Source: Sulfuricaulis sp. (GTDB lineage: Bacteria > Pseudomonadota > Gammaproteobacteria > Acidiferrobacterales > Sulfurifustaceae). Taken from it: a stretch of DNA of 55,374 nucleotides. A model generated the notes under the pieces. The model saw only the letters and a program-made list of their open reading frames with translations. It made no database searches and was not told where the DNA came from. Numbering within the stretch: the stretch's first letter is position 1; the number at the start of each line of letters is the position of its first letter. A program made the position numbers and the translations under genes. Shown here piece by piece: positions 36,110-54,936 of this stretch. The DNA is taken from NCBI GenBank assembly GCA_030650525.1, contig JAUSDQ010000208.1, forward strand, positions 1-55,374, written 5' to 3'.

Positions 36110-37093
36110 CTATCGGCGCCTAGCTTGTTTCCTGGCGACCTTTTTCGCCGTCGCAAGCCTGGACGACCTATCAGAGTGGCCCATGGCCGTTAGTAGCGAC
36201 TCTTCGAGGTTCAATGCGGCGAACTCCAGCTGGATCGCATCGACCAGCTTAACGCTCGCCGCCGAAACCTTACGATCGCTGGGCCACGCCACAACCCATC
36301 CCGTATCGAAGCCGGCGATGGGCGCTATGGAGAGGAAGCCGGCTTCGTACTCCCGCAGCACGGCGGAGAATGGGACGACGGCAAAGGCGATACCTCGGCA
36401 GACCAGGTCAATGCTCAGGTGAAGGGGCTGAACGTCCATCACGACATTGAGTGTCAGACCAATCCGATTCGCCGCCTTTTCGAGTCCGCTCGTGACGCGG
36501 TTCGACCGAGAAATCAGCAAGGGATGCTGCGAAACAAAGGCCAGATCGACCGGCGTGTCCATGCGTAGGCCGGCACGGGCCGGGCCGGCAATCACAAGCG
36601 GCTCATTGATTAGCGTACGCGTGGACAGAGCCTTGCCGTTGGCGTCATCGCGAATGACAACCGCGACGTCGCATAATCCCCTGGCCAGGGAATCGGCCAT
36701 GGTGTGAGACAGGCCCTCAATCACACCGAGGTGGACCTTCGGGTAGCGACGCAGGTATCCTTCGACCAGGCCGCCGCCCAGCAGCACGCGGATCGACGGC
36801 GTCATTCCCAGCACCAGGTGGCCGGTCGGCGTTTCCGACTCAGCCAGCACGTCTTCCCTGAGCAGCGCGACGTCCCGGAACAGTTGGCTGGCGCGGTCGC
36901 GCAGGATCTCGCCTGCGTGCGTCAGCACGACGCCGCGTGAGGTCCGATCGAGCAGCTTGGCACCGATTTCCTCCTCCAGTAGCTGCACCTGCCGCGTCAG
37001 CGCGGATTGCGAGATGTAGCGGGCGCGCGCCGCGGCGGCGAAGCCCCCGTGTTCCGCGATCGAGATGAAGTAGCCAAGCTGTCGCAGGTCCAT
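36110..37093 (-). CDS. LysR family transcriptional regulator
   Basis: A 327-residue LysR-type regulator. The N-terminal winged helix-turn-helix (about 1-60) reads LGYFISIAEHGGFAAAAR, then ISQSALTRQVQLLEEEIGA; the C-terminal effector domain starts near residue 90 with HLVLGMTPSIRVLLGGGL. It is divergent from the CoA ligase at 37262, the classical LysR layout, and the gap holds AT-rich palindromes. It is the likely activator of cluster 3, responding to the imported acid or its CoA ester. The C-terminus is lysine/arginine-rich. Confidence 0.92.
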   Translation of the reverse strand: MDLRQLGYFISIAEHGGFAAAARARYISQSALTRQVQLLEEEIGAKLLDRTSRGVVLTHAGEILRDRASQLFRDVALLREDVLAESETPTGHLVLGMTPSIRVLLGGGLVEGYLRRYPKVHLGVIEGLSHTMADSLARGLCDVAVVIRDDANGKALSTRTLINEPLVIAGPARAGLRMDTPVDLAFVSQHPLLISRSNRVTSGLEKAANRIGLTLNVVMDVQPLHLSIDLVCRGIAFAVVPFSAVLREYEAGFLSIAPIAGFDTGWVVAWPSDRKVSAASVKLVDAIQLEFAALNLEESLLTAMGHSDRSSRLATAKKVARKQARRR

Positions 37094-37116
37094 GATGGCA
37101 GTATAAGCGGAGATAG

Positions 37117-37158
37117 CGAATTATTCGATAGCTGCCAGCCGTAAATTGAATTTCCCAG
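37117..37158. promoter_or_regulatory. LysR-type operator/promoter element, copy A
   Basis: AT-rich island in GC-rich DNA, between the divergent LysR and ligase genes. It contains CGAAT-T-ATTCG (37117-37127) and AAATT-G-AATTT (37143-37153). The part from 37121 on is repeated at 40770-40806 with about 31 of 38 aligned columns identical, and both copies begin 141 bp before a start codon. Confidence 0.6.
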
Positions 37159-37261
37159 CAAGTGCCATTCTCGTTACAGTGAATCACGGACTCAACGGGC
37201 GCCCTGCCTCCAGATTCCCGGATGGTCTCGCATCGAAGACCACCTACCGGAGACAAACACA

Positions 37262-38881
37262 ATGTTCACCCAGCCACCAGTGGTGCAGCCGCTGCCGCCA
37301 CTGGCCGACCGCCATTTTGGAACGGTCTTCAAGACAGCGCTCGCCCATTACCCGGACAAGATCGCCATCCGCGACCCGGAACGCTGCCTCAGCTACGCCG
37401 GTCTTTACGAAAACGCACTGCAGCTGGCCGGCGGCCTGACGCGCCTCGGCGTGGAGCGACAGCAGGCGGTGCTGATGATGCTCGATAACCACGTGGACTT
37501 CGTCGTCTTCTGGTGCGCCCTGAGCCTGACTGCGCGCATCGAAGTGCCGGTGAACACCGCATACAAGGGGGCGTCGCTGGCACATCAGGCGAACAACTCC
37601 CGTGCCCGCACGATGGTGATCGAGGCTGCATATATAGAACGCCTCTCCGATGTGGCGGGTGAACTCGAGTTCCTGGAGACGGTGATCGTCCGGGGCGGCG
37701 GCGCGATCGCACGGGCCGCCGTGCCGAAACAATTCCGCGTGCTGACGTGGGAAGACCTGGCCGTCGGCGCACCGGACGCGCCGGCGGACCTTCACCCTTC
37801 CGACGTGATGGCGATCCTCTACACCTCCGGCACCACCGGCCCATCCAAGGGCTCGGTGAACAGCCATGCGCACGGCTACACCTACGCGCATCCCTCGAAT
37901 TTCGGCGCGGCGGGGCCCAACGACGTGACGCTGGTGCCTCTCCCGCTGTTCCACATGGGTGGGCAATGGGCGGCAGTCTACAACGCCTTCATCGGCGGAG
38001 CGACTGCCGTAGTCCTGCCCCGCTTCAGTGCATCCAGCTTCTGGGAACAGGCGCGCGAATACGGCGCCACCTACTGCTTCCTCCTCGGGGCGATGACGCA
38101 CTTTCTGCTGAGGCAGCCTGTACGCCTGGGTGACCGCGATCATCCGCTGAAGAACATGCTGCTGGTGCCGATCCCGGCCGAGATCGAGGAGTTCAAGGCC
38201 CGCTTCGGAGTGGAGAACCTCGCCGCCGCCTTCGGCGCCACCGAGTCGGGTGTGATCGCCCATGCACCGTTGGGAACCGGCGTCGCCGGCCGCGTTGGCT
38301 GGCTGCGCAAAGGCGTCGAAGCCATCATCGTGGACGAATTCGGAATGGAAGTTGCGCCCGGCGAAACTGGCGAGATGTGGGCCCGGGCCCGCGAGCCCTG
38401 GACCATGACCAACGGCTATTTCGGCATGCCGGAAGCCACCGCCGCAGCCTGGCAGAACTTGTGGTTCCACACCGGCGACGCCGTGCGCCTGGCGGACGAC
38501 GGCCAGTACGTGTTCGTCGACCGGGTCAAGGACGCGATCCGCCGGCGCGGCGAGAACGTCTCCAGCTTCGAGGTAGAACGCGAGATCAATACCCACCCCG
38601 CAGTCGTCGAGTGCGCGATCGTGGCCGTGCCCAGTGAATACGTGGAGGACGAGATCAAGGCCTGCGTGGTCTGCAAGGAAGGAATCGAACTGACGCCCGA
38701 GGCGCTGCTCACTTTCCTGATGCCACGGCTGCCCCACTTTGCCGTGCCGCGCTATGTCGAATTCCTGCGCAGCCTGCCCAAGACCCCGACCGAAAAGGTG
38801 CGCAAGACAGAACTGCGCAAGGCCGGCGTCACCGCCATTACCTGGGACCGCGAAGCCGCCGGCTTCACGGTCGTCCATTAA
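37262..38881 (+). CDS. AMP-dependent CoA ligase, CaiC-like
   Basis: A 539-residue ANL ligase resembling crotonobetaine/carnitine-CoA ligase subgroup members. The P-loop is YTSGTTGPSKGS near residue 188-199, DRVKDAIRRRGENVSSFEVE lies near 420-440, and the catalytic lysine is in PKTPTEKVRK near 515. CCGGAGACAA precedes the ATG, a leader shared with the genes at 39723 and 40911. It is the first rightward gene of cluster 3 and is followed by a dioxygenase and a DctP gene. It probably activates the imported acid so that the dioxygenases can act on the CoA ester. Confidence 0.91.
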   Translation: MFTQPPVVQPLPPLADRHFGTVFKTALAHYPDKIAIRDPERCLSYAGLYENALQLAGGLTRLGVERQQAVLMMLDNHVDFVVFWCALSLTARIEVPVNTAYKGASLAHQANNSRARTMVIEAAYIERLSDVAGELEFLETVIVRGGGAIARAAVPKQFRVLTWEDLAVGAPDAPADLHPSDVMAILYTSGTTGPSKGSVNSHAHGYTYAHPSNFGAAGPNDVTLVPLPLFHMGGQWAAVYNAFIGGATAVVLPRFSASSFWEQAREYGATYCFLLGAMTHFLLRQPVRLGDRDHPLKNMLLVPIPAEIEEFKARFGVENLAAAFGATESGVIAHAPLGTGVAGRVGWLRKGVEAIIVDEFGMEVAPGETGEMWARAREPWTMTNGYFGMPEATAAAWQNLWFHTGDAVRLADDGQYVFVDRVKDAIRRRGENVSSFEVEREINTHPAVVECAIVAVPSEYVEDEIKACVVCKEGIELTPEALLTFLMPRLPHFAVPRYVEFLRSLPKTPTEKVRKTELRKAGVTAITWDREAAGFTVVH

Positions 38882-38904
38882 CCCACATCTGAGAAAGAGC
38901 CGCC

Positions 38905-39699
38905 ATGGAGACAATGGAAATGAACAATCTGCATGCCACCTTCACGAAGGACGGCGTGGTCCGCGTCAAGCAGGCGCTGGATGCGGACTGGCTGAAGGAG
39001 GCCGAGGCGGCCTTCAACTGGAGCCTGGCGAACCAGAGCGCCACCTCGGCCCACTACAACAAAGAAACCGAGTCGGGCAGGTTCTATGTCGATACCGCCA
39101 ACCCCGAATCTCTGCCGGTGTACCGCAAGCTGCTGGAGAACTCCCTGCTGGCCGACCTTGTCGCCAGCGCCTGGGGTTCGGATAAGGTCTGGTACGCCTT
39201 CGAGCAGATCTTCTACAAGGAAGGCGGCTCGGTTCGCAGCCAGCGCACAGGCTGGCACCAGGATTCCTCCTACCTCTCCTTCGACGGCGAGGACCTGGCC
39301 GTCATGTGGATCACCTTCGACGCCCTGCCTAAGGAGGCGGCGCTGGAACTGGTGCGCTGCTCCCATCGCGGCCCGCTGTACGAGCAGCGCGGCGTCAAGA
39401 ACGACACCGGCCGGCCGACTGTGCCGCACATCGAGGCTGCGCGCGACCAGTACGACATCGTGTCCTGGCCGATCGAGCCCGGTGACGTGCTGATCTTCCA
39501 TCCGGCCATGCTGCATGGCGGTGGCGGCACCGAGGCTGGCAAGCGCCGCCGCACCCTGTCGCTGCGCTTCTTCGGCGAGGATGTGAAGTTCATCCGCCGG
39601 CCGCAGACGCACGACACGCCGCCGCAGTTCCTGCGGCTGAACGAGCAACTGAACGACGGCGACCCGTTCCGACATCCCGATTTTCTGCAACTGCGCTGA
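38905..39699 (+). CDS. phytanoyl-CoA dioxygenase family protein (PhyH 1)
   Basis: A 264-residue Fe(II)/2-oxoglutarate dioxygenase. The facial triad is His118 and Asp120 in GWHQD and probably His204 in MLHGGGG; an Arg near 216 would hold 2-oxoglutarate. It should hydroxylate an unactivated carbon, consuming O2 and 2-oxoglutarate. It belongs to a different branch from the other three PhyH proteins of the cluster, which share a FDGMPEP-like motif it lacks. It lies between the CaiC-like ligase and the first DctP gene. An ATG at 38920 is an alternative start. Confidence 0.91.
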   Translation: METMEMNNLHATFTKDGVVRVKQALDADWLKEAEAAFNWSLANQSATSAHYNKETESGRFYVDTANPESLPVYRKLLENSLLADLVASAWGSDKVWYAFEQIFYKEGGSVRSQRTGWHQDSSYLSFDGEDLAVMWITFDALPKEAALELVRCSHRGPLYEQRGVKNDTGRPTVPHIEAARDQYDIVSWPIEPGDVLIFHPAMLHGGGGTEAGKRRRTLSLRFFGEDVKFIRRPQTHDTPPQFLRLNEQLNDGDPFRHPDFLQLR

Positions 39700-39722
39700 C
39701 CCACACAACCCGGAGACAAACC

Positions 39723-40745
39723 ATGACCATCGACCGCCGCACCTTCCTCGCCCGCGCTTCTGCCGCGGCCACCGCGACCATCGCCGCGCCCTTCGTCGGC
39801 AGCGCCCATGCCCAGGCGCCGCAGTTCTCGTTTAAGTACGCGCACAATGCGCCGGTCACCCACCCGCTGCACATCCACGCAGCCAAGGCCTGCGAGCAGA
39901 TCAAGGAGCAGACCAAGGGTCGCGTGGTCATCGAGGTGTTTCCCAACAATCAGCTCGGTGGCGACACCGACATGTTGTCGCAGCTGCGCTCGGGCGCGAT
40001 CCATTTCCAGACGCTGTCGCCGCTGATCCTGTCCACACTGGTGCCGGCCGCCTCAATCAGCGGCATCGGCTTCGCGTTCTCAAACTACGACCAGGTCTGG
40101 GCCGCGATGGATGGCGAACTAGGCGCCTATGTGCGCTCGGCGATCGGCACCACCGGCCTGGTGGCGATGGAGAAGATCTACGACAACGGCTTCCGCCAGA
40201 TCACCACCAGCAACCGGCCGATCAAGACGGCGGAAGACCTCAAGGGCCTGAAGATCCGGGTGCCGGTCAGCCCGCTCTGGACCTCGCTGTTTAAGGCGCT
40301 GGGCGCATCGCCCACAGGCATCAACTGGGCCGACGCCTACGTCGCCATGCAGTCCAAGGTCGTGGATGGCCAGGAGAATGCGTTGGGGATCGTCAGCATC
40401 GCCAAACTCTACGAAGTGCAGAAGTTCTGCTCCGAAACCAACCATGTCTGGGACGGCATCTGGTTCCTGGCCAACGGAAAGGCCTGGAATTCCATGCCGG
40501 CCGACTTGCAGCAGATCTGCGCGAAGAACTTCAACGAGCAGGCGCTGGCCCAGCGCGTCACCAACCGCAAGCTTAACGAATCGCTGGAGAGCGAGCTGAC
40601 CGCCAAGGGCATGGTCTTCAACCGGCCCGACCTCCCGAGCTTCAAGAAGGCGTTGCAACGCGCCGGCTTCTACCAGGAGTGGAAGACCAAGTACGGCGGC
40701 GAGGCCTGGGCGCTGCTGGAAAAACGGGTCGGCGCGCTGGCCTGA
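39723..40745 (+). CDS. TRAP transporter substrate-binding protein DctP 1
   Basis: A 340-residue periplasmic TRAP binding protein. The N-terminal DRRTFLARAS is a twin-arginine motif followed by a hydrophobic alanine-rich stretch and cleavage near AHA-Q at residue 32, suggesting Tat export. The carboxylate-binding arginine is in LKGLKIRVPVSP near residue 175, and VVDGQENAL is the typical DctP signature. GGAG precedes the ATG. No permease gene is adjacent; the fused DctQM gene is at 48273. It follows the PhyH 1 gene by 23 bp. Confidence 0.92.
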   Translation: MTIDRRTFLARASAAATATIAAPFVGSAHAQAPQFSFKYAHNAPVTHPLHIHAAKACEQIKEQTKGRVVIEVFPNNQLGGDTDMLSQLRSGAIHFQTLSPLILSTLVPAASISGIGFAFSNYDQVWAAMDGELGAYVRSAIGTTGLVAMEKIYDNGFRQITTSNRPIKTAEDLKGLKIRVPVSPLWTSLFKALGASPTGINWADAYVAMQSKVVDGQENALGIVSIAKLYEVQKFCSETNHVWDGIWFLANGKAWNSMPADLQQICAKNFNEQALAQRVTNRKLNESLESELTAKGMVFNRPDLPSFKKALQRAGFYQEWKTKYGGEAWALLEKRVGALA

Positions 40746-40769
40746 GGCCGGCGTCCGTGGCCCATCTCA

Positions 40770-40806
40770 TTTTTCGATGGCTTCTAGCCTCAAATTGAAT
40801 TTCCAG
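40770..40806. promoter_or_regulatory. LysR-type operator/promoter element, copy B
   Basis: A close copy of the element at 37121-37158, including the exact palindrome AAATTGAATTT at 40792-40802, in the 165-bp gap between DctP 1 and PhyH 2. It begins 141 bp upstream of the ATG at 40911, the same distance as copy A to the ATG at 37262. It suggests a second promoter controlled by the same regulator. Confidence 0.6.
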
Positions 40807-40910
40807 ATTTGCGCACCAGGGCCGACACTGCATCCCAGAGGACCGGCGGCAATGTACCGCGTGGTCCCGACGGCTCACCCAGAAACCTTCCATCCGGAGA
40901 CAACAAACCC

Positions 40911-41678
40911 ATGCTGACCCAGCAACAGATCACCCAGTACGAGCGCCAGGGCCTGCTCGTGCTCCCCTCCTTCTTCAGCGCCGACGAGATCGGCTCGCTG
41001 ATGGCCGACATGCCTCGCATCGTGGCGATGGACCGGCCCGAGGTGGCCAAGTCCGCCGAATGCGAGACCCGCACCGCGCTGGCCCTGCACCGCTACAGCG
41101 ACGCGTTCCAGCGCTTCATGCACAACCCGAAGCTGATCGCGCTGGCCAGGCAACTGCTGGGCGGCGACATCTACTGCCACCAGTACAAGATCGTCTGCAA
41201 GGATCCGATGGGCACGCTGGACTTTCCGTGGCACCAGGACTTCGCCAACTGGCACGACCTGGACGGCATGCCCGAGCCGCTGGCGCTGAACATCTCGATC
41301 TACCTCGACCCGGTGACCGAGTTCAACGGCCCCGTCGCCTTCATCCCCGGTTCGCACCACCGCGGCCGCATCCCTTCGCTGGTGGAGACGCCCGCCGGCC
41401 TGGAGAACATGACGACGCTGGCGCGCCTGAACCGCGGCGCGATCGAGGACATGGTCAACGAATACGGCCTGGTGGCGCCCAAGGGCCCGGCCGGCACCAT
41501 CGCGATCTTCCACGGCCTCACGGCCCATGCGTCCACGCCCAACATCAGCCCGTGGACGCGCCACATCCTGTACTTCACGGCCAACCGCGTCAGCAACGCG
41601 ATCCGCAAGCCCACCCGGCCCGACTACGTGGCCCACCGCGATTTCGCGCCGCTCGAGCCCGAGACGGCCCTGGCCTGA
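40911..41678 (+). CDS. phytanoyl-CoA dioxygenase family protein (PhyH 2)
   Basis: A 255-residue Fe(II)/2-oxoglutarate dioxygenase. His108 and Asp110 lie in FPWHQD, the third ligand is probably His206 in TAHAST, and Arg217 in WTRHI would bind 2-oxoglutarate. It shares DLDGMPEP-type and FIPGSH motifs with PhyH 3 and PhyH 4, so the three are paralogues. I start at the ATG at 40911 behind CCGGAGACAA; the frame continues upstream into the promoter element and is not coding there. It is followed by DctP 2 after 18 bp. Confidence 0.92.
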   Translation: MLTQQQITQYERQGLLVLPSFFSADEIGSLMADMPRIVAMDRPEVAKSAECETRTALALHRYSDAFQRFMHNPKLIALARQLLGGDIYCHQYKIVCKDPMGTLDFPWHQDFANWHDLDGMPEPLALNISIYLDPVTEFNGPVAFIPGSHHRGRIPSLVETPAGLENMTTLARLNRGAIEDMVNEYGLVAPKGPAGTIAIFHGLTAHASTPNISPWTRHILYFTANRVSNAIRKPTRPDYVAHRDFAPLEPETALA

Positions 41679-41696: not shown

Positions 41697-42734
41697 ATGA
41701 ACGACAACACTTCCGGCGCAACCGGCCGGCGCGGCTTTCTGACGACCGCGGGGGCACTCGGCGCCGCCGCGGCCCTGCCGCTCATCACCCTGCCGCGCTA
41801 TGCGAAGGCCGCGGAGTTCAACCTCAAGTACGGCAGCGAACTGCCGCTCTCCCACCCGCAGGTGGCCCGCATCAAGGAAGCGACGGAGGCGATCCGCAAG
41901 GAGACCGGCGGGCGCGTCGACATCGAGGTGTTCGCCGCCGGCGCGCTGGGCAGCATCACCGACATGATCTCGCAGACCCGCTCGGGCGCGATCCAGATGC
42001 TGAGCGTCGCAATGGCCAACATGACCACCTTCGACCCCAAAGCATCGCTGACCATCCCCTATGCCTTCAAGGACTACAACGCGGTCTGGGCGGCGATGGA
42101 CGGCGAACTCGGCGCCTACTCGCGCCGCGTCATCAGCCGCTTCGGCTTCCACGTGTTCGACCACATGTGGGACCACGGCTTCCGCCAGATGACCACCCGC
42201 ACCAAGCCGATCAATTCGCCCGACGACCTCAAGGGCTTCAAGATCCGGGTGGCGGTGGTGCCGATGTATGTCTCGCTGTTCAAGGCGCTGGGCGCCGCAC
42301 CGACGGCGATCAACTTCAGCGAGCTGTACTCCGCGCTGCAGACCCGCGTGGTGGACGGCCAGGAGAACTCGTTGGCCCTGATCGACAGCGCCCGCTTCTA
42401 CGAAGTGCAGACCCACGTCTCGATGACCAACCACATCTGGGAAGGCTACGTCACCGCCTTCAACGATGCCGCCTGGAAGAAGCTGCCCGGCAACCTCCAG
42501 GACACCATCAAGAAGCACTTCCGCGACGCCACGCTGGCCCAGCGGCAGGACATGGTGGCCCTCTCCGGCACGCTGCAGGCCCAGCTGCAGGCCAAGGGCA
42601 TGAAGTTCAACCCGGCCGACTCGGCCCCGTTCCGCGTCGCGCTCAGCAGCGCCGGCTTCTACAAGGAATGGAAAGAGAAGTTCGGCCCCGAAGTCTGGGC
42701 CGTGCTCGAGAAGTATTCCGGTAACCTCGCCTGA
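41697..42734 (+). CDS. TRAP transporter substrate-binding protein DctP 2
   Basis: A 345-residue TRAP binding protein. The N-terminus carries GRRGFLTTAG, a twin-arginine motif, before a hydrophobic stretch and a likely cleavage after YAKA near residue 38. LKGFKIRVAVVP holds the substrate-binding arginine and VVDGQENSL the family signature. It resembles DctP 3 (53087) more than DctP 1, e.g. in the shared AEFN start of the mature protein and the GFYKEWKEKFG end. Confidence 0.92.
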   Translation: MNDNTSGATGRRGFLTTAGALGAAAALPLITLPRYAKAAEFNLKYGSELPLSHPQVARIKEATEAIRKETGGRVDIEVFAAGALGSITDMISQTRSGAIQMLSVAMANMTTFDPKASLTIPYAFKDYNAVWAAMDGELGAYSRRVISRFGFHVFDHMWDHGFRQMTTRTKPINSPDDLKGFKIRVAVVPMYVSLFKALGAAPTAINFSELYSALQTRVVDGQENSLALIDSARFYEVQTHVSMTNHIWEGYVTAFNDAAWKKLPGNLQDTIKKHFRDATLAQRQDMVALSGTLQAQLQAKGMKFNPADSAPFRVALSSAGFYKEWKEKFGPEVWAVLEKYSGNLA

Positions 42735-42748
42735 AGAACAAGGACAAC

Positions 42749-43543
42749 ATGCTGACCAAAGAACAAATTGCCACCTACGAGCGCGACGGCTATCTGGTGC
42801 TGCCCGAACTGTTCCGCCCCGAGGAGATCGCCGTGGTGCGGCGCGCCGCCTCCGAGATCTACGAAATGAACCGGCCAGAGGTCTGGCGCGGCACCGGCGG
42901 CGAGTTCCGCCTGGCCTTCGGCGTGCAGCACTACCACCCGGTGTTCGACCTGTTCTTACGCCACCCGCGCCTGATCGAGCCGACCCGCGATCTGCTGGGC
43001 GGCGACGTCTACTGCCACCAGTACAAGCTGATCAACAAGCAGCCTTTCGGCAAGCTTGACTTCCCCTGGCACCAGGACTTCGCCAACTGGAACGTGTTCG
43101 ACGGCATGCCGGAGCCGCGGGCGCTGAACATCTCGGTATTCCTGGATGAAGTGACCGAGTTCAACGGCCCGGTGATCTTCATCCCCGGCGCCCACAAGGA
43201 AGGCCTGATCAAGGCCGACGTGCTGCCGATGGACGGGGTTGACCAGGACGGCGCCCACACCATCAGCGGCAAGGAACTGGAGCGGCTGGCCAGGGCCAAC
43301 GGCATGGTCGCACCCAAGGGCAAGCCGGGCACCGCGGTGCTGTTCCATCCCTACATGCCGCATGCGTCCTCGCCCAACCAGTCGCCCTGGTCGCGCAGCA
43401 CCATCTACCTCACCAGCAACCGGGTGGACAACTACCTGCGCAAGCCGACGCGTCCCGAGTACGTGGCCCACACCGATTTCACGCCACTGAAAGCGGTATC
43501 CGAGAACGCGCTGCTGGAATACGAAGCGACCGCGGCGGCCTGA
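42749..43543 (+). CDS. phytanoyl-CoA dioxygenase family protein (PhyH 3)
   Basis: A 264-residue Fe(II)/2-oxoglutarate dioxygenase. His108 and Asp110 stand in FPWHQD, His205 in MPHASS is the likely third iron ligand, and Arg216 in WSRST the likely 2-oxoglutarate ligand. It opens with MLTKEQIATYERDGYLVLP, very like PhyH 2, which supports recent duplication. Its stop shares one base with the ATG of the phosphotransferase gene, so the dioxygenase and kinase are translationally coupled. Confidence 0.92.
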   Translation: MLTKEQIATYERDGYLVLPELFRPEEIAVVRRAASEIYEMNRPEVWRGTGGEFRLAFGVQHYHPVFDLFLRHPRLIEPTRDLLGGDVYCHQYKLINKQPFGKLDFPWHQDFANWNVFDGMPEPRALNISVFLDEVTEFNGPVIFIPGAHKEGLIKADVLPMDGVDQDGAHTISGKELERLARANGMVAPKGKPGTAVLFHPYMPHASSPNQSPWSRSTIYLTSNRVDNYLRKPTRPEYVAHTDFTPLKAVSENALLEYEATAAA

Positions 43544-46643: not shown

Positions 46644-47819
46644 ATGAACGAGCCAGTCATCATCGACGCCATCCGCACGTCCTACGGCCGCCGCAAGGGT
46701 GCGCTGCGGAACACCCGCCCCGACGACCTGCTAGCCACCACGCTCGACCAGCTGGTGCAGCGCAGCGGCGTGGCCGCAAAAAGCGTGGACGACGTCATCG
46801 CGGGTTGCGTCAGCCAGGCCGGAGAGCAGGCCGCAAACATCGGCCGCATCTCGGCGCTGCTAAGCGGCCTGCCGTTGTCCGTGCCGGGCGTGGCGCTGAA
46901 TCGCATGTGCGGCTCCAGCCAGCAGGCCATGCACTTCGCGGCGCAGGCCGTCGCGGCCGGCGACGCCAACTACGTGATCGCCTGCGGCGCGGAGAGCATG
47001 ACGCGGGTGCCGATGTTCCTGGACGTCACGCTCGGCCAGCACGCATTCCGCGGCTTCCAGGACCTCAACCCGAAGCTGATGGAGAAGCACCAGCTGGTGC
47101 ACCAGGTGGAAAGCGCGGAACTGATCGCAAAGAAATGGGGCATTTCGCGCGAAGCCTGCGACGCCTATGCGCGCGAGAGCCATACGCGGGCCGCCCGCGC
47201 GGCCGCAGCCGGCCAGCACAAGGAGATCGTCGGCACGGCCGCGATCGATTCCGACGGCATCGCCTTCACGCTGCAGCGCGACGAAGGCATCCGCGAGAAC
47301 CTGGATGTCGCAAAGATGGCCTCGTTGGCGCCGGTGTTTCGCGCGCCCGGCGAAGGCGTGGTGACGGCTGCCAATTCGAGCCAGCTGTCGGACGGCGCAT
47401 CGGCGCTGCTGGTTGCGGATGCCGCCGTCGCCCGCTCGGACGGCCTCAAGGCCCGCGCGCGCTTTCGCGCCCGGGTGGTCTGCGGCTCCGACCCGGTGCT
47501 GCAGCTCACCGGCGTGATCCCTGCGACGCGCAAGGCGCTGGAGAAATCGGGACTGCAGCTCGCCGACATCCACTGGATCGAGATCAACGAGGCATTCGCC
47601 AGCGTGGTGCTGGCCTGGTCGCGCGAATTTGGCGCCGATATGGAGCGGGTCAATCCCTGGGGCGGCGCAATCGCCCACGGCCATCCTCTCGGTGCTTCTG
47701 GTACCGGCCTGATGGCCAAGATGCTCACAGGATTGGAGGCCACTGGCGGCACAATCGGCCTGCAGCTGATGTGCATCGGCCACGGCATGGCCACGGCCAC
47801 TATCGTGGAGCGCGTGTGA
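46644..47819 (+). CDS. acetyl-CoA acyltransferase (thiolase)
   Basis: A 391-residue thiolase. Cys89 in NRMCGSSQQ is the nucleophile; [21 protein letters not shown] and CIGHGM complete the active site. It is the paralogue of the cluster 1 thiolase. It would release acetyl- or propionyl-CoA from the beta-keto intermediate. It ends 11 bp before the convergent SnoaL-like gene. No dedicated 3-hydroxyacyl-CoA dehydrogenase accompanies it in cluster 3. Confidence 0.93.
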
Positions 47820-47830: not shown

Positions 47831-48220
47831 TTACCTTGCCTGCTTGGGCAGCGCCGTCGCCGCCCAGGCCGCCAGTACCCACGCGCCGTTCTCGCGCACC
47901 CACGTGCTGGTGAATGCAGCCTGCGTGCGGAAGGGTCTGTCGTCGACCTCCGCCGTCACCTGAACGCTGCCCTGCATCACGGCGCAGTCGGTCCAGGCAT
48001 GGAATTGCGCCACTTCTCTTTCCATCCGGATGTACTTGACCCGGCCGCTGCGCAGCGCCTCCATGTACTGCGCTTTGCTCTCGACCGCGCCAGTGGAGTG
48101 GCAATAGCTCAGCGCGTCAGCCAACACGCTGTCCAGCGCGGCGAAATCACCTTCGATCATCGCCTTGTACCTGGCGTCGTCGCGGGCCACTACGAGCTGT
48201 TCGACAGACTGGATAGTCAT
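47831..48220 (-). CDS. SnoaL-like / nuclear transport factor 2 family protein
   Basis: A 129-residue protein of the NTF2-like fold (DUF4440 style): it opens with an acidic helix region (ARDDARYKAMIEGDFAAL), followed by LADALSYCHSTG and a strand-rich C-terminus ending near WVRENGAWVLAAW. Such proteins are lyases, isomerases or ligand binders; the exact role is not known. It is the only leftward gene among those following 37262 and sits back to back with the DctQM gene. Confidence 0.82.
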   Translation of the reverse strand: MTIQSVEQLVVARDDARYKAMIEGDFAALDSVLADALSYCHSTGAVESKAQYMEALRSGRVKYIRMEREVAQFHAWTDCAVMQGSVQVTAEVDDRPFRTQAAFTSTWVRENGAWVLAAWAATALPKQAR

Positions 48221-48272: not shown

Positions 48273-50144
48273 ATGAACGTTGAACACGCTCTGCCCCCAC
48301 AATCCGCGGACGCGGCCACCCGCAACTCCGTCACTGAGATCGTAACTGATAGCGTGGTGAAGGTGATCGAGGTGGTGTGTGCTGCCGTGCTGGTGGTGGA
48401 GATCTGCCTGCTGTTTGCCGGCGTGATCTGCCGCTACGTCCTGCACTACCCGCTGGTCTGGTCGGACGAACTGGCGTCCATCCTATTCATCTGGCTGACC
48501 ATGCTCGGGGCTGTGCTGGCGCTGCACAAGGGCGCGCACCTGCGGCTGACGGCCTTCGTCACCCGCATGCCACGATGGTCGCCGCTGCTGGCCACCATGA
48601 CGTCGCTGCTCGTCGTGGTCTTCCTGGCGGCGCTGATGCATCCGGTCTGGGAGCACGTGCAGTCCGAGTCCATCCTCACCACTCCGGCGATGGGCATCCA
48701 GAACACCTGGCGTGTCTCCTCGCTGGCGGTAGGCCTGGGCCTGATGCTGCTGCTGGCCGCGCTGGACCTCGCCAGCCGGATCACATCCCGTGACTTCCTG
48801 ATCTCTGTCGTGGTCGTTGCTACTGTCACCGGCGTCCTGTGGATGGCCGGCCCGTCGCTGCGCGCCGTCGGCAACTACAACCTCATCCTGTTCTTCCTCG
48901 TCCTGGTCGGCCTGTGCGTGGCCGGCGGCATGCCGATCGCCTTCGCCTTCGGCATCTGCACCGTCGCCTATCTGGCCTTCGTCACCGACGCGCCAATGAC
49001 CATCGTGATCAGCCGGATCGACGAGGGCATGTCGCACATCATCCTGCTGGCGGTTCCGCTGTTCGTGGTCCTGGGCCTGCTGCTACAGATCACCGGAATC
49101 GCCAAGGCCATGATCGAGTTTCTCGCTTCCATGCTGGGCCACGTTAAGGGCGGCCTGTCGTACGTGCTGCTGGCCGGCATTTATGTCGTATCCGGCATCT
49201 CGGGCTCCAAAGCTGCCGACATCGCCGCCATCGCGCCGGCACTCTTCCCGGAGATGCAGAAGCGCGGCTACAACAGCGGCGAGATGGGCGCCCTGCTCTC
49301 GGCGTCAGCAGCCATGTCCGAAACCATCCCGCCCAGCCTAGTGCTGATCACCATCGGCTCGGTCGTCGGCGTCTCGATCTCCGCGCTGTTCACCGGCGGC
49401 GTGATCCCGGCCCTGGTGCTGGCGATCGCGCTGTCCGTAGTGGTCTATTTCAAGTCCAAGGGCACAGCGCCCGCCGTGTCCGAGAAGATGAGCAAGAAGG
49501 CGATCTTCAAGCTTTTCCTGATCGCGCTGCCCGCCCTGTCGCTGCCGCTGGTGATCCGCGGCGCGGTGGTCGAGGGCGTGGCCACTGCCACCGAGGTCGC
49601 CACCGTCGGCATCGTCTACTCGATCATCATCGGCATCTTCATCTACCGCAGTTTCGATCCGCGGCGCATCTACCCGATGCTGGTGGACACGGCGACACTG
49701 TCGGGCGCCATCCTGCTGATCATGGGCATGGCCACCGCCATGGGCTGGGGCCTGAGCCAGTCGGGCTTCTCGCGCCAGCTGGTCGCGGCCATGGCCGGCA
49801 TGCCCGGCGGCGCCTACGGCTTCCTGGCCGTGAGCATCGTCGCCTTCATCGTGCTGGGCTCGCTGCTGGAAGGCATCCCGGCTATCGTGCTATTCGGGCC
49901 CCTGCTGTTCCCGGCCGCGCGGGCCCTGGGCATCCACGACGTCCACTACTCGATGGTCGTCGTCCTGGCAATGGGCATCGGCCTGTTCGCGCCGCCGTTC
50001 GGCGTCGGCTTCTTCGGGGCCTGCGCGATCGGGAAGATCGACCCCGACGAGGCAACCAGCTACATCTGGCCCTACATGGCGGCACTGCTGGCCGGCTTGG
50101 TGCTGGTCGCCGCCTTCCCCTGGCTGTCGATCGGCTTCCTGTAA
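48273..50144 (+). CDS. fused TRAP transporter permease DctQM
   Basis: A 623-residue membrane protein joining the small (DctQ, about residues 1-170, four hydrophobic segments with WSDELASILFIWLTMLG) and large (DctM, from about 190 to the end) permease subunits in one chain. The M part has IPFGICT-like ADGMPIAFAFGIC and GISGSKAADIAAIAPALFPEM, the typical DctM core. It would import the acid captured by the three DctP proteins using a sodium gradient. GAGGAT precedes the ATG, and GAATTGAATTC lies 20 bp upstream of it. Confidence 0.92.
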   Translation: MNVEHALPPQSADAATRNSVTEIVTDSVVKVIEVVCAAVLVVEICLLFAGVICRYVLHYPLVWSDELASILFIWLTMLGAVLALHKGAHLRLTAFVTRMPRWSPLLATMTSLLVVVFLAALMHPVWEHVQSESILTTPAMGIQNTWRVSSLAVGLGLMLLLAALDLASRITSRDFLISVVVVATVTGVLWMAGPSLRAVGNYNLILFFLVLVGLCVAGGMPIAFAFGICTVAYLAFVTDAPMTIVISRIDEGMSHIILLAVPLFVVLGLLLQITGIAKAMIEFLASMLGHVKGGLSYVLLAGIYVVSGISGSKAADIAAIAPALFPEMQKRGYNSGEMGALLSASAAMSETIPPSLVLITIGSVVGVSISALFTGGVIPALVLAIALSVVVYFKSKGTAPAVSEKMSKKAIFKLFLIALPALSLPLVIRGAVVEGVATATEVATVGIVYSIIIGIFIYRSFDPRRIYPMLVDTATLSGAILLIMGMATAMGWGLSQSGFSRQLVAAMAGMPGGAYGFLAVSIVAFIVLGSLLEGIPAIVLFGPLLFPAARALGIHDVHYSMVVVLAMGIGLFAPPFGVGFFGACAIGKIDPDEATSYIWPYMAALLAGLVLVAAFPWLSIGFL

Positions 50145-50171: not shown

Positions 50172-51719
50172 ATGGCCATCACCCAGCTTTTCTCCCGCGG
50201 CGCCTCGCTTTACCCGGATCGGATGTGCCTGCAGGACGCGAACGGAAGCCGCACTTACGCCCAGGTGCGCGAGCACGTGACCCGTTTCGCCGGCCGCCTG
50301 AACGCCAGCGACCAGCCCACCGGCGAGAAGTGCGCGGTTTACTCGCCCAATGCCTCCATCGCCATGGAATGCCTGATCGGCATCCAGTGGGCCGGCGCGG
50401 TCTACGTGCCGCTCAATCCCAAGAACCACGCGCAGGAGAACATCACCATTCTGGACAACTGCGACGTCGGCACGCTGTTCTTCCACAGCAGCCTGGCCGA
50501 CCAGGTGGAGCTGCTGCGCGCCGGCTGCCCCAAGTTGACGCGCTTCATCTCCATCGACCAGCCGGTACCGGACGCCGAGTTCCTGGACTCCTGGATCGGC
50601 AACGCCGCCCCGCGCCCCACGCCTTTCCCGTACGAGCCCAACGACGTGGTCGCCATCTATTCGACCGGCGGCACGACGGGGTCGCCCAAGGGCGTGATGC
50701 TGACCAGCGTCAACTGGGACATCACCGCGGCGAACTTCCACGCCCACACCCCGGTGAAGAAGCCCCCGGTGTTCCTGGCCGTGTCGCCGATCACCCATGC
50801 ATCCGGCACCTTCGCCTTCATGGTGATGGCGCTGGGCGGCAAGACCGTGATCCTGCCCGGCTTCGACGCCGAGGCCATCCTCACGGCCATCGAGCGCGAG
50901 AAGGTCACCCATGTGTACCTGCCGCCGACCGCCATCTACATGCTGCTGGAACATCCGGGCGTGCGCGGGCGCGACTACTCGTCGCTGGAATACTTCATCT
51001 ACACGTCGGCGCCGATGTCGGTGACCAAGCTGCACGAGTGCCTGGAGATCTTCGGCCCGGTGATGATCCAGTTCTGGGGCCAGACCGAGGCGCCGAGCTT
51101 TTGCACCTGCCTCTCGCGCGAGGACCACCTGAATCTCACACCCAAGCGCGAGCAGCGGCTCCTGAGCTGCGGCCAGCCCATGCTGCTGACGCCGGTGGCG
51201 GCGATGGACGACGACGGCAAGCTGTTGCCGGCCGGCGAGAAGGGCGAGCTGGTGGTCAACGGCCCGCTGGTGATGGCCGGCTACTACAAGAATCCCGCGG
51301 CGACGGCCGGTGTCTCCGGCCAAGGCTGGCACCACACCGGCGACATCGGCTACGTCGACGAGGACGGCTACGTCTTCATCGTCGACCGCAAGAAGGAAAT
51401 GATCATCACCGGCGGCTACAACGTCTACCCGCGCGAGGTGGAACGTGTGCTGCTGGCCCACCCCGCGATCCAGGAGTGCGCGGTGGTCGGAACCCCGCAC
51501 GAGAAGTGGGGCGAAGCGGTGACCGGCGTGATCGAGCTCAAGGCCGGCAGCGCGCTGGGCGCCGAAGAACTGATGGCGTTCTGCAAGGCACAACTGGGCA
51601 GCATCAAGGCGCCCAAGTCCATCGAGTTCTGGGCCGAGCTGCCCCGCACAGCCGTTGGCAAGGTCGACAAGAAACTGATCCGGCAGAGCTTTTGGCAAGG
51701 CATGGAACGTGCCATCTGA
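50172..51719 (+). CDS. AMP-dependent acyl-CoA synthetase
   Basis: A 515-residue ANL ligase. The P-loop reads YSTGGTTGSPKGVM near residue 160-172, the hinge DRKKEMIITGGYNVYPREVE near 405-425, and the catalytic lysine is in PRTAVGKVDKK near 495. TAGGA precedes the ATG, 27 bp after the permease. It is the second CoA ligase of cluster 3, from a different subgroup than the CaiC-like one, and more similar in motifs to the cluster 1 ligase at 16534. Confidence 0.92.
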   Translation: MAITQLFSRGASLYPDRMCLQDANGSRTYAQVREHVTRFAGRLNASDQPTGEKCAVYSPNASIAMECLIGIQWAGAVYVPLNPKNHAQENITILDNCDVGTLFFHSSLADQVELLRAGCPKLTRFISIDQPVPDAEFLDSWIGNAAPRPTPFPYEPNDVVAIYSTGGTTGSPKGVMLTSVNWDITAANFHAHTPVKKPPVFLAVSPITHASGTFAFMVMALGGKTVILPGFDAEAILTAIEREKVTHVYLPPTAIYMLLEHPGVRGRDYSSLEYFIYTSAPMSVTKLHECLEIFGPVMIQFWGQTEAPSFCTCLSREDHLNLTPKREQRLLSCGQPMLLTPVAAMDDDGKLLPAGEKGELVVNGPLVMAGYYKNPAATAGVSGQGWHHTGDIGYVDEDGYVFIVDRKKEMIITGGYNVYPREVERVLLAHPAIQECAVVGTPHEKWGEAVTGVIELKAGSALGAEELMAFCKAQLGSIKAPKSIEFWAELPRTAVGKVDKKLIRQSFWQGMERAI

Positions 51720-51760
51720 ACCCGCGCTCCCCAATTTTTAACCTGTAACGAAAGTCAAAT

Positions 51761-53011
51761 ATGGATGTCTATGTCATCGGAACCGCCTGCACGGCGTTCG
51801 GAAAATTTCCCAACAAGAGCTTCAAGCAACTGACCCGCGAGGTCTACACCGAGCTGCTGGAGGACGCCGGCATGGACGATGGCGACCGGATCCAGACCTC
51901 TTGGTTCGCCAACGTCAAGATGGAAATGTTCAAGCAGCCCAACATCCGCGGCCAGGTCTGTTTCTCGGAGCTCGTCGCCGAAGGGCTATTCCCCGAGTAC
52001 GCGCCGATGATCAACGTCGAGGGCGCCTGCGCTACCGGCTCGCTCGCCTTCCACGGCGCCTGCAAGGACATCTTGTCCGGCGAGGCCGAGCTGTCGCTGG
52101 CGATCGGCGTGGAAAAGACCTTCATTCCCGATGACCCGGAGCGCCAGTACCAGCTGTTCACCGGTGGCCTGGACCAGATGAACCCCGAGGTCTGGCAGGA
52201 GTACTACCGCAAGGCCGGCGAGAAGATGAACCGGCCGTGGACGCTGAACGTGGCCGGCGGCACGCTCAACATGGACACCTACGCGATCCAGGCCGCCTAC
52301 CACATGAGGAAGTACGGCAGCACGCAGAAGCAGTTCGCCATCGCCGCTTCCAAGACGCACCACAACGGCAGCCTGAACCCGCTGGCGCAATACCAGTTCG
52401 AGGTCAGCGTGGAGAAGGCCATGACGGACCGCGAGATCAGCTTCCCGCTCACCCGCTCGATGTGCGCACCCATCGGCGACGGCGCGGCCGCGGCCCTCGT
52501 GTGTTCGAAGAAGCTTTTCGACACCCTGCCCGCCGCGGTGCGCGAGCGCGCCGTCAAGGTGCGCGCCAGGGGCCTGGCCAACGGCAAGTACCGCGACATC
52601 GACGAGCCGGGCGTGAGCCACATCGCCGCCAAGCGCGCCTATGCGGCGGGCGGCCTGACGCCCGCGGACATCGACCTGGCCGAAGTGCACGACGCCACGA
52701 CCTTCGGCGAGATCTACCAGCCCGAAATGCTCGGTTTCTGCGACTTCGGCGGCGGCGGCAAGCTGCACGAATCGGGCGCCACCGCCATCGGCGGACGGAT
52801 TCCGATCAACACCTCGGGCGGCCTGATTTCCAAGGGCCACCCGGTCGGCGCCACCGGCCTGTCGATGATCCATGAGATCACCAAGCAGCTGCGCGGCGAG
52901 GCGGGCGCGCGTCAGGTCAAGAATGCCGACATCGGACTCGCCGAAAACGGCGGCGGCACGATGGGCTTCGACGACGCGATCTGCGCCATCACAATCCTTC
53001 AGCGCGCCTGA
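51761..53011 (+). CDS. thiolase family protein, SCP-x/SCP2-type
   Basis: A 416-residue thiolase-fold protein of the lipid-transfer (SCP-x) group. The nucleophilic Cys90 is in VEGACATGS, EVHDATTFGEI takes the place of the usual NEAF motif, and NTSGGLISKGHPVGATG is typical. Members of the group cleave branched or side-chain beta-ketoacyl-CoA in sterol and bile acid breakdown. Its presence beside a classical thiolase suggests two different cleavage steps. No strong Shine-Dalgarno is visible. Confidence 0.91.
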   Translation: MDVYVIGTACTAFGKFPNKSFKQLTREVYTELLEDAGMDDGDRIQTSWFANVKMEMFKQPNIRGQVCFSELVAEGLFPEYAPMINVEGACATGSLAFHGACKDILSGEAELSLAIGVEKTFIPDDPERQYQLFTGGLDQMNPEVWQEYYRKAGEKMNRPWTLNVAGGTLNMDTYAIQAAYHMRKYGSTQKQFAIAASKTHHNGSLNPLAQYQFEVSVEKAMTDREISFPLTRSMCAPIGDGAAAALVCSKKLFDTLPAAVRERAVKVRARGLANGKYRDIDEPGVSHIAAKRAYAAGGLTPADIDLAEVHDATTFGEIYQPEMLGFCDFGGGGKLHESGATAIGGRIPINTSGGLISKGHPVGATGLSMIHEITKQLRGEAGARQVKNADIGLAENGGGTMGFDDAICAITILQRA

Positions 53012-53086
53012 CCGCACCGCCACCGGAAAAATGCGCACACGGTTTCATTTCCCCAGCCCTTCCCCCACCCATAGGAGACTTTCATC

Positions 53087-54109
53087 ATGAACAAGACAAT
53101 TTCCCGCAGGACACTGATCACCGGCTCCCTGCAAGCCGGCGCGGCGATGGCCGCGTTCGGCATTCCCCGCTTCGGCAACGCGGCGGAATTCAACTACAAA
53201 TTCGGCAGCTCGATGGCCGCCAACCATCCCTCGACGCTACGCAACGAGGAAGCCTTCAAGAAGATCCGTGAGGAGTCGGGCGGCCGGGTCGACATCCAAT
53301 CCTTCCCCGGCGGCGCGCTGGGCAGCGACATCGACATGGTCTCGCAGGTGCGCTCGGGCGCGATGCACTTCATGTACCTGCCGCAGGGCCACCTCTCCAG
53401 CATGGACCCGCGCGGCGCGCTGCACAGTGTCCCATTCGCCTTCAAGGATTACAACGACGTGTGGACCGCAATGGACGGCGACCTGGGCGCCTACCTGCGC
53501 ACCATCTACACCAAGGTCGGCCTGCATGCCTTCGAGAAGGCCAGCGACCACGGCTTCATGCACATGACGACGCGCTCCAAGCCCATCGTCACGCCCGACG
53601 ACTTCAAGGGCCTGAAGGTGCGTGCCTCGGTCGTCCCGCTGTACGTGTCGCTGTTCCGCGCCCTGGGCGCCTCGCCCGCGGCCATCCCGTTCCCGGAGCT
53701 GTATGTGGCGCTGCAGACCCGCATCGTCGACGCCCAGACCAATCCGCTGCAGTTGCTGGAGATCGCCAAGCTGTACGAGGTGCAGAGCTTCTGTTCGCTG
53801 ACCGGCCATACCTGGGAAGGCTATTTCAACTGCGCCAACGGCAAGGTGTGGGCGGCCCTGCCGGCCAACCTGCAGGCAATCGTCTCGAAGAACATCAACG
53901 CCGCGACGCTCAACACCCGCGACGACCTGGCGAAGTTCAACACCACGGTGGAGGCCAACCTGACCGCCAAGGGCATGAAGTTCAACCGCCCCGATCGCGA
54001 GCCCTTCCGCCTCGCGTTGCAGAAGGCAGGCTTCTACAAGGAGTGGAAGGAAAAGTTCGGTGCCGAGGCCTGGGGCGTGGTCGAGAAATACTCCGGCGGC
54101 CTGGCCTGA
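53087..54109 (+). CDS. TRAP transporter substrate-binding protein DctP 3
   Basis: A 340-residue TRAP binding protein. The N-terminal SRRTLITGSL is a twin-arginine motif, with cleavage likely after GNA near residue 28. The binding arginine lies in FKGLKVRASVVP; the usual VDGQEN is altered to VDAQTN, which may reflect a different ligand. TAGGAG precedes the ATG. Related most closely to DctP 2. It is followed by PhyH 4 after 17 bp, so the DctP-PhyH order is reversed relative to the first two pairs. Confidence 0.92.
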   Translation: MNKTISRRTLITGSLQAGAAMAAFGIPRFGNAAEFNYKFGSSMAANHPSTLRNEEAFKKIREESGGRVDIQSFPGGALGSDIDMVSQVRSGAMHFMYLPQGHLSSMDPRGALHSVPFAFKDYNDVWTAMDGDLGAYLRTIYTKVGLHAFEKASDHGFMHMTTRSKPIVTPDDFKGLKVRASVVPLYVSLFRALGASPAAIPFPELYVALQTRIVDAQTNPLQLLEIAKLYEVQSFCSLTGHTWEGYFNCANGKVWAALPANLQAIVSKNINAATLNTRDDLAKFNTTVEANLTAKGMKFNRPDREPFRLALQKAGFYKEWKEKFGAEAWGVVEKYSGGLA

Positions 54110-54126
54110 GCGCAAGGGGCATTGCG

Positions 54127-54936
54127 ATGCAACTGAACGCCGAGCAACTAAAGTCGTTCCAGGACGACGGCTACATCTTCTTTCCGGACTGCTTCGACCC
54201 GCAGGAGATGGCCCTACTGCAGGCCGAGGCGACGCGCGTGCTGGCCGAGCCGCGCGAGGAAATCCGCCGCGAGAAGTCGGGCGTGCCCCGCACGGCTTTC
54301 GCTGCGCACCGCTACAGCGAGATCTTCAACATCTTGGCGCATGACCCGCGCCTGGTCGAACCGCTGGAGCAGATCTTCGGCGAGCCGGTGTACATGCACC
54401 AGTTCAAGATCAACGCCATGACCGCCTTCACTGGCGAGACCTGGCAGTGGCACCAGGACTTCCCTTCCTGGAACCGCTTTGACGGCATGCCTGAGCCGAG
54501 GGCCATGAACATCGCGCTGTTCCTCGACGAAGTGAAACCCATCAATGGCGCGCTGATGCTGATCCCGAAGAGCCATCGCCACGGGGCACTGCCGGACGCC
54601 TATGACGACATGACGACGTCGCACCCAGGCTGGTACCTCACACCCCAGGTCGTGTCAGAAATGGCGGAACAGGGCGGGATCATCGCGCCGACCGGCATGC
54701 CCGGCTGCATGCTTATGTTTCACGCCAACCTGGCACACGGATCTCCCCCTAATATGACGCCCTATCCGCGACGCATCGTCTACCTTACGCTGTCGGCGGT
54801 GTCAAACCACCTGCGCGGCAAGCAGCTGCGGCCGGAATTCATCGCTCACACCGACTTCACGCCGATGAAGGCCGGCCGGTCCGGCTCCCTGGTTGCCACC
54901 GCGGCAGCTGCACAACGGGCGCCGAAGCCTTCCTGA
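54127..54936 (+). CDS. phytanoyl-CoA dioxygenase family protein (PhyH 4)
   Basis: A 269-residue Fe(II)/2-oxoglutarate dioxygenase. His109 and Asp111 are in WQWHQD, the third ligand is probably His204 in LAHGSP, and an Arg of YPRRI near 215 would bind 2-oxoglutarate. RFDGMPEPRAMN places it with PhyH 2 and 3. I start at the ATG at 54127 with AAGGGG upstream; the frame is open much further upstream only because it overlaps DctP 3. It is the last gene of cluster 3. Confidence 0.91.
   Translation: MQLNAEQLKSFQDDGYIFFPDCFDPQEMALLQAEATRVLAEPREEIRREKSGVPRTAFAAHRYSEIFNILAHDPRLVEPLEQIFGEPVYMHQFKINAMTAFTGETWQWHQDFPSWNRFDGMPEPRAMNIALFLDEVKPINGALMLIPKSHRHGALPDAYDDMTTSHPGWYLTPQVVSEMAEQGGIIAPTGMPGCMLMFHANLAHGSPPNMTPYPRRIVYLTLSAVSNHLRGKQLRPEFIAHTDFTPMKAGRSGSLVATAAAAQRAPKPS

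Follow-up and report, generated by a model that had tools for sequence, protein, structure and literature searches.

The window analyzed here, a 55,374-nucleotide contig of a Sulfuricaulis sp. assembly (JAUSDQ010000208.1), carries between positions 36110 and 54936 a cluster in which four PhyH-family dioxygenase genes, three genes for DctP solute-binding proteins, and one fused DctQM permease gene of the tripartite ATP-independent periplasmic (TRAP) type are grouped around a catabolic gene set. Our tentative reading, held at somewhat below an even chance, is that the cluster degrades a family of small carboxylic acids in a modular fashion, hydroxylating each acid before activating it. Three of the dioxygenases resemble free-acid hydroxylases, the catabolic genes are of the ACAD10/11 kind, and the dioxygenase and receptor genes keep company in other genomes. 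An earlier note on this DNA had placed the four PhyH, three DctP, and single fused DctQM genes, and open reading frames (ORFs) exceeding the Pfam cut-offs lie at each of these places. All four PhyH genes found in the whole assembly fall within the cluster, as do three of its seven DctP genes, and because all of the assembly's PhyH genes are here and the layout recurs in other genomes, the arrangement exceeds chance.

The genes are organized as two + strand runs, with a LysR-family regulator gene divergent and upstream. The first run contains, in order, an acyl-CoA ligase (ACS1), PhyH1, DctP1, PhyH2, DctP2, PhyH3, a kinase, an acyl-CoA dehydrogenase (ACAD), an enoyl-CoA hydratase/isomerase (ECH), and a thiolase (Thio1). 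Thio1 is separated by a - strand DUF4440 gene from the second run, which is made up of DctQM, a second ligase (ACS2), a second thiolase (Thio2), DctP3, and PhyH4.

PhyH2 (40911 to 41678), PhyH3 (42749 to 43543), and PhyH4 (54127 to 54936), all on the + strand, share 37 to 52% mutual identity (51.6% between PhyH2 and PhyH3), and their HxD and distal His iron ligands are complete and do not vary across the 29 sequences aligned (a set that contains the three window copies), so that their description as paralogues with an intact HxD...H motif holds. PhyH1 (38905 to 39699, + strand; Pfam PhyH E 6e-21) is a separate type with only 21 to 24% identity to the other three; its nearest solved relative is MysH (E 4.5e-14), and HxD...H iron ligands are readable in it too, which the earlier note did not claim. 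The AlphaFold model of PhyH3 (mean pLDDT 92.8) is matched most closely by Foldseek to the leucine 5-hydroxylase GriE (TMq up to 0.91) and the trans-3/4-proline hydroxylase H11 (up to 0.90), then to EctD (0.79 to 0.84), with human PHYHD1 reaching at most 0.70. A phmmer search with PhyH3 gives the same picture, with E values of 5e-55 to 9e-54 for the GriE/H11 branch and of 5e-55 to 3e-35 for free-acid hydroxylases overall, versus 1.9e-6 for the phytanoyl-CoA dioxygenase chain 2a1x. PhyH2, PhyH3, and PhyH4 thus resemble free-acid hydroxylases (GriE, trans-proline hydroxylase, and EctD) rather than acyl-CoA PhyH enzymes. The substrates of those nearest solved relatives are ectoine or free amino acids, which makes CoA esters, previously offered as an alternative substrate class, less likely for these three.

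The PhyH family is named for its reaction in phytanate alpha-oxidation, and a system of that type would have the dioxygenases act on CoA esters made by ACS1 and ACS2, removing methyl-branch blocks. The presence of two acyl-CoA ligases within the cluster would suit this, but the sequence and structural distances of PhyH3 from phytanoyl-CoA dioxygenase and PHYHD1 point the other way, and there is no 2-hydroxyacyl-CoA lyase among the domains found in the cluster; we regard this explanation as improbable for the cluster, and as less constrained for PhyH1, which is further from all of the compared dioxygenases.

A role in ectoine hydroxylation or uptake is rejected on two grounds. The EctD signature is F-X-WHSDFETWH-X-EDG-M/L-P (PMC2871039), where PhyH3 reads FPWHQDFANWNVFDGMP and PhyH2 and PhyH4 depart as well, and PhyH2, PhyH3, and PhyH4 score 146 to 166 against the EctD NCBIfam model, less than half of its cut-off of 336.5. 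Among the EctD product contacts Gln127, Thr149, Trp150, Arg280, and Leu284 (PMC6890836), Gln127 and Trp150 correspond to PhyH3 Q91 and W114, which are invariant in all 29 aligned sequences; Thr149 is changed, and Arg280 and Leu284 lie beyond the alignment. Comparison of 14 orthologues (4, 5, and 5 of PhyH2, PhyH3, and PhyH4) identifies 20 positions that are fixed inside each group and different in all three. At position 95, which aligns with H11 Asn101 (the residue altered in entry 7dt0), PhyH2 has Val, PhyH3 has Ile, and PhyH4 has Asn. These residues fit three maintained and different specificities, although they are weak evidence for them, as old paralogues would show such positions anyway.

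The receptors DctP1 (39723 to 40745), DctP2 (41697 to 42734), and DctP3 (53087 to 54109) and the permease DctQM (48273 to 50144) are all + strand genes, and the DctP, DctQ, and DctM domains, the latter two in one ORF, all exceed their Pfam cut-offs. DctQM is the sole permease of the cluster and not of the genome, as the assembly contains four DctM matches (one of them weak). The three receptors have 47 to 54% mutual identity, with DctP1 at 47% to the other two, and the nearest solved chain to DctP2 is 4oan from Rhodopseudomonas palustris (E 1.3e-97; Foldseek TMq 0.86, model pLDDT 85.2). Each has a leader with an Arg-Arg pair and a hydrophobic stretch, and the pair is invariant in the 13 aligned DctP proteins, the window's three included; Pfam TAT_signal is not reported for any of the three, and their export by the twin-arginine translocation system is a motif-based prediction. 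The Arg in the column of DctP2 R184 is also present in DctP1, DctP3, 4oan, and 4pc9, and by its motif is a candidate counterpart of the carboxylate-binding arginine of TRAP receptors, R147 in SiaP (PMC3610893). DctP2 and DctP3 form old sister groups in a quick tree (SH-aLRT support only), on which a very recent tandem duplication is rejected. The receptor-dioxygenase pairs also did not arise by duplication of a single block, because PhyH1 is only 21 to 24% identical to the other dioxygenases, yet DctP1 is 47% identical to the other receptors.

The catabolic set consists of a kinase gene (43543 to 44589), an ACAD gene (44615 to 45850), and an ECH gene (45853 to 46635; Pfam ECH_1), all on the + strand. 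It had been described previously as the one catabolic set; the set is indeed present, but its 4-hydroxyacyl-CoA (ACAD10/11-LvaAC) type and the existence of a second set in the window had been missed. The kinase has an APH fold; it matches the solved bacterial chain 3dxp (a 'putative acyl-CoA dehydrogenase' kinase) at E 1e-92 and mouse ACAD11, over the kinase domain, at E 1e-66. Aminoglycoside resistance is rejected as its function, since it is related to kinases of ACAD11 type and scores far under the cut-offs of the APH resistance models. For the ACAD, the E value is 4e-112 against ACAD11 and rises to 1.9e-34 for the best chain that does not belong to the ACAD10/11 group. Residues that mark ACAD10/11 and LvaC are R626, an HCMR motif, and the catalytic Asp753, and the catalytic residues of the corresponding kinases are D220 and N225 (PMC12440821). 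R626, R631, HCMR, and the catalytic Asp are all kept in the cluster ACAD; the three other ACADs in the window, which served as controls, lack HCMR, R626, and the catalytic Asp. The kinase motif reads HGDFRMGN, and its Asp and Asn align with residues 219 and 224 of the 8v3v chain, whose numbering is one below that of the paper. By these residues the set is of the ACAD10/11 (LvaA/LvaC) kind, with a predicted 4-hydroxyacyl-CoA kinase and a dehydrogenase predicted to eliminate phosphate from 4-phosphoacyl-CoA.

The second set comprises a kinase of the same type at 13252 to 14463 (+ strand, ORF start uncertain; 53% identity to the cluster kinase, motif HGDYRMGN, thus keeping HGDxxxxN), an ECH at 20080 to 21006 (- strand; 53% to the cluster ECH), and an ACAD of LvaC type at 20888 to 22135 (- strand; 69% to the cluster ACAD, with every checked residue kept). 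It spans both strands of the window, and its closest relatives adjoin the PhyH cluster of Variovorax sp. KK3.

An alignment of PhyH2, PhyH3, and PhyH4 with one further relative was scanned against a collection of genomes from 84,980 species, and the best 79 loci were taken. The same cluster is present in four of these, from Variovorax sp. KK3, a Variovorax metagenome-assembled genome (MAG), Variovorax sp. dw_308, and a Lautropia MAG, giving, together with the window's own, five loci for comparison. All five share the LysR regulator, PhyH3, DUF4440, ACS2, Thio2, DctP3, PhyH4, and a DctQM, the last with 79 to 84% identity to the window's in the three Variovorax clusters and with 46% in Lautropia, where it is placed last. 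DctP3 and PhyH4 are adjacent in all five, PhyH2-DctP2 is present in four and missing from Lautropia, and ACS1-PhyH1-DctP1 is present in three, with constant internal order at varying sites: it precedes the core in the window and follows it in KK3, and in dw_308 it is divergent and accompanied by a second DctQM. At E <= 1e-20, the Lautropia genome lacks any match to PhyH1, and the Variovorax MAG has just one of 31%. PhyH3 is in all five loci and never has a DctP of its own. The Lautropia locus is the smallest version, with PhyH3 and PhyH4, one DctP, one ligase, and one thiolase. The dw_308 block has its own DctQM (54% identical to the window's) and a second LysR-like gene nearby, and appears as an independent version of the module. 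The accessible parts of papers naming the Variovorax strains give no clue to a substrate.

These comparisons bear on how receptors and dioxygenases divide their work. The earlier note proposed that each DctP-PhyH pair serves one acid of a family, all feeding one pathway, and its suggested check of adjacency in relatives came out in its favor, as did the term 'modular', since the PhyH-DctP blocks are gained, lost, and moved as units. The separate conservation of the old sister groups DctP2 and DctP3 and the group-specific fixed residues of the three PhyH paralogues also agree with it. A strict one-to-one pairing, however, is not supported in view of the partnerless PhyH3, the two PhyH genes with one DctP in Lautropia, and the mismatch between DctP and PhyH relationships, and because the PhyH1-DctP1 block of dw_308 has its own permease and a LysR-like gene nearby, that block need not feed the same system; we consider the pairwise scheme distinctly unlikely. 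Sequential tailoring, in which a single complex acid is hydroxylated at different positions by at least two PhyH enzymes prior to cleavage, with its variants bound by the DctP paralogues, would account for PhyH3 lacking a receptor in all five loci and for the Lautropia version, in which two dioxygenases accompany a single DctP, one ligase, and one thiolase. The coming and going of PhyH2-DctP2 and ACS1-PhyH1-DctP1 as units is more natural for separate substrates, and we rate such tailoring as a minority possibility.

The cluster is rare. Among 399 genomes drawn from the family of KK3, PhyH3 has a match at E <= 1e-30 in 67, with a close orthologue (89%) only in KK3 and the others at 32 to 44%, and of 95 further genomes, chosen as relatives of the window's assembly, four have PhyH3 matches (E <= 1e-10) of 38 to 43%. 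A DctP gene lies within 2 kb of the PhyH gene in 17 of the best 79 loci, the four cluster relatives included, where the density of DctP genes across 36 of the genomes leads one to expect about 1.8% per locus; no probability is claimed for this excess, because the loci are related to each other, with Bradyrhizobium contributing 19 of the 79 and 9 of the 17. The remaining 62 loci have no DctP within 2 kb, some of them owing to a short contig, and the adjacency is thus not a general habit of the PhyH family; most PhyH relatives are without a TRAP neighbor, and the adjacency is a trait of some lineages. The Bradyrhizobium DctP proteins are of a distant kind (Pfam confirms DctP in the four tested), and in one Bradyrhizobium locus (L088) a DRL-type oxidoreductase gene lies between PhyH and DctP. 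Gaps between PhyH and DctP are 474 and 659 bases in two of three Pseudomonas (L024 and L045) and 28 bases in an Acetobacteraceae MAG. All three Pseudomonas (L145, L147, and L149) have a DctQM, a Thio2-like thiolase, and a CoA ligase about 20 kb or less from PhyH, the thiolase and ligase being confirmed by Pfam in one; a short-chain dehydrogenase/reductase also accompanies the Pseudomonas TRAP system, on the contig of a PhyH4-like gene.

In the modular hydroxylate-then-activate system that we favor, DctP1, DctP2, and DctP3 would bind carboxylates in the periplasm and pass them to a shared DctQM. PhyH2, PhyH3, and PhyH4, with the fold and branch described above, would act on the free acids in the cytoplasm, adding a hydroxyl group that would most likely go to C4 (gamma), the position used by trans-4-proline hydroxylase; PhyH1 is a separate type that has its own ligase and DctP. 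The ligases ACS1 and ACS2, AMP-forming by family, would then form CoA esters of the hydroxylated acids, the kinase would phosphorylate the 4-hydroxyl group, and the ACAD10/11-type dehydrogenase would eliminate the phosphate to give a 2-enoyl-CoA, if the substrate of this pair does come from the PhyH enzymes. ECH, a FadB-like protein encoded elsewhere in the window, and the thiolases could complete beta-oxidation. The additional DctP and PhyH paralogues would broaden the intake around a core of two PhyH enzymes per DctP; we infer the order of the steps. The placement of the hydroxyl group at C4 is a guess with two weak legs, by analogy with H11, which acts at C4 (or C3) of proline, and with ACAD10/11-type sets, which handle 4-hydroxy acids.

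The catabolic set is found near the core in other genomes too. Besides the window, two of the four relatives have an ACAD10/11-type kinase-ACAD-ECH set no more than a few kb away from the PhyH core. In KK3, DctP1 is followed by genes for an ACAD, an ECH, and a kinase that are most similar to those of the window's second set (80, 68, and 73%, respectively), and in dw_308 a kinase-ACAD-ECH set comes after PhyH4; the ACADs and kinases of both strains keep the same diagnostic residues. The Variovorax MAG encodes an 84% relative of the second ACAD apart from the cluster, on a contig of 3.1 kb, with FadB on one side and, on the other, a gene that looks by eye like a nitronate monooxygenase; the window has the order FadB, ACAD, ECH, and that gene. 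ACAD relatives in Lautropia and two of the three Pseudomonas reach only 51 to 55%, and the third Pseudomonas has none at E <= 1e-100.

Several observations weigh against coupling the dioxygenases to this set. The strongest are the absence of a kinase-ACAD-ECH set beside the Lautropia core and the inserted look of the window's in-cluster set, which splits PhyH3 from DUF4440 (neighbors in all four relatives) and is accompanied by the inversion of DUF4440. The core-side sets of Variovorax are nearer to the window's second set than to the one in its PhyH cluster, except for the dw_308 kinase. ACAD10/11-type genes are common in these genomes, with three, four, and six matches in the three Variovorax. 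PhyH is absent from the fetched stretches at five loci in other genomes with a 57 to 65% Thio2 homologue (one of these only 4.8 kb), and Thio2 is thus not tied to PhyH; three of the five have Liv-type ABC genes, and a weak DctP1-like fragment is at the end of one. There is no aminotransferase or deaminase among the cluster's Pfam domains, though GriE, H11, and EctD use amino acids or ectoine. Finally, the route calls for an unusual substrate, because a plain fatty acid would gain nothing from receiving a 4-hydroxyl group whose oxygen is then lost again. Some of these points favor a composite neighborhood, in which a core of TRAP, PhyH, ACS2, and Thio2 and the ACAD10/11-type set have separate substrates and adjoin each other only because the island is dense in catabolic operons, much of the remaining window also being catabolic operons. 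That the set is close to the core in three of the five loci, in differing arrangements, speaks for a connection, and we consider the composite explanation rather doubtful.

Each part of the cluster is of a known kind, and the combination suggests that a family of acids may be consumed by a route not yet described. It could be an undescribed aerobic strategy, a speculative suggestion that we think unlikely as it stands, in which free-acid 2-oxoglutarate dioxygenases of the GriE/proline-hydroxylase branch, TRAP receptor blocks, and ACAD10/11 couples open inert acids to beta-oxidation. A 4-hydroxyl group placed on an inert acid would then lead to a 2-enoyl-CoA, bringing in substrates that ordinary acyl-CoA dehydrogenases cannot start on. 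To our knowledge, levulinate is the only described bacterial source of 4-hydroxy acids for an ACAD10/11-type couple, and a cluster that makes its own 4-hydroxy acid would add another role to this common class of bacterial genes. As PhyH and DctP travel together, the ligands of one could also be guessed from those of the other. A full-text literature search, with most subscription journals outside its reach, found no description of this PhyH-TRAP layout; the papers that it brought up deal with marine genomes and communities, one of them reporting a SAR86 clade with four to seven copies of phyH (PMC7367891).

The remaining cluster genes are a LysR-family regulator (36110 to 37093, - strand; Pfam LysR_substrate and HTH_1), which has a 71 to 76% relative at the cluster in all four related loci; ACS1 (37262 to 38881, + strand; Pfam AMP-binding), which moves with PhyH1-DctP1 in KK3 and dw_308; Thio1 (46644 to 47819, + strand; Pfam Thiolase_N/C, and above the NCBIfam cut-off for acetyl-CoA C-acyltransferase); ACS2 (50172 to 51719, + strand; Pfam AMP-binding); and Thio2 (51761 to 53011, + strand), an SCP2/BbsB-type thiolase (Pfam Thiolase_C_1) whose nearest solved chain, 7pxp, is a benzoylsuccinyl-CoA thiolase subunit. 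The DUF4440/SnoaL-like gene (47831 to 48220; Pfam DUF4440) is inverted in the window, on the - strand; in all four related loci it is on the cluster strand, directly 3' of PhyH3. No 3-hydroxyacyl-CoA dehydrogenase was found in the PhyH cluster, and the FadB-like ECH/3-hydroxyacyl-CoA dehydrogenase gene at 22162 to 24309 (- strand; Pfam 3HCDH and ECH) could supply the missing step.

Elsewhere in the window, two Liv-type ABC transporter operons with CoA ligases and ACADs (3813 to 14463 and 25287 to 34793) contribute to a dense catabolic island; the ACAD at 33543 to 34793 resembles pimeloyl-CoA dehydrogenase, with a score under that model's cut-off, and 14479 to 15558 codes for a CaiB-like protein, judged by eye. 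Rfam and tRNA scans of the window gave no match, a sigma-70 scan gave no sites (2.1 in shuffles), and terminator-like sites number 23 (11.5 in shuffles). The window is a whole contig of a 3.76-Mb assembly in 354 contigs, 94% complete with 5.8% estimated contamination. PhyH3 has no match in the eight other genomes of the same genus searched (1.9 to 2.9 Mb), and a MalT-like LuxR regulator (5167 to 7878) has five matches in the assembly and none in 40 other genomes (E <= 1e-60). The contig may have been acquired recently or wrongly binned; its gene content is unaffected either way. A plasmid-borne cluster was also considered and rejected, as a tblastn search of 72,556 plasmid records with PhyH3 (E <= 1e-30) yielded 34 records, all with less than 60% identity.

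The closest likenesses of the catabolic set are to the lva genes for levulinate in Pseudomonas putida and to mammalian ACAD10 and ACAD11, with which it shares the kinase and ACAD subfamily and the diagnostic residues, and in the cluster ECH and thiolase genes follow. The likeness to lva covers the counterparts of LvaA and LvaC only, and unlike lva the set sits among dioxygenases and TRAP components, such that the cell may produce the 4-hydroxy acid itself rather than derive it from a keto acid. GriE and H11 have a common fold with PhyH3, about 38 to 41% identity, the Fe ligands, and membership in the free-acid branch, although the position of H11 Asn101 is occupied by Ile and Val in PhyH3 and PhyH2, and the cluster differs in its catabolic setting, with CoA ligases and TRAP receptors and without amino-acid genes alongside. 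EctD is of the same PhyH branch and UehABC is likewise a TRAP system for uptake of a small carboxylate, but EctD is biosynthetic, its signature and NCBIfam cut-off set it apart from PhyH2, PhyH3, and PhyH4, and there are no ectoine genes among the domains found. TarPQM, SiaPQM, and the receptor 4oan, which represent TRAP systems for aromatic or other carboxylates, have in common with the cluster the DctP fold, a conserved Arg assigned by its motif, and a DctQM permease, whereas the cluster has three receptors for its one fused permease.

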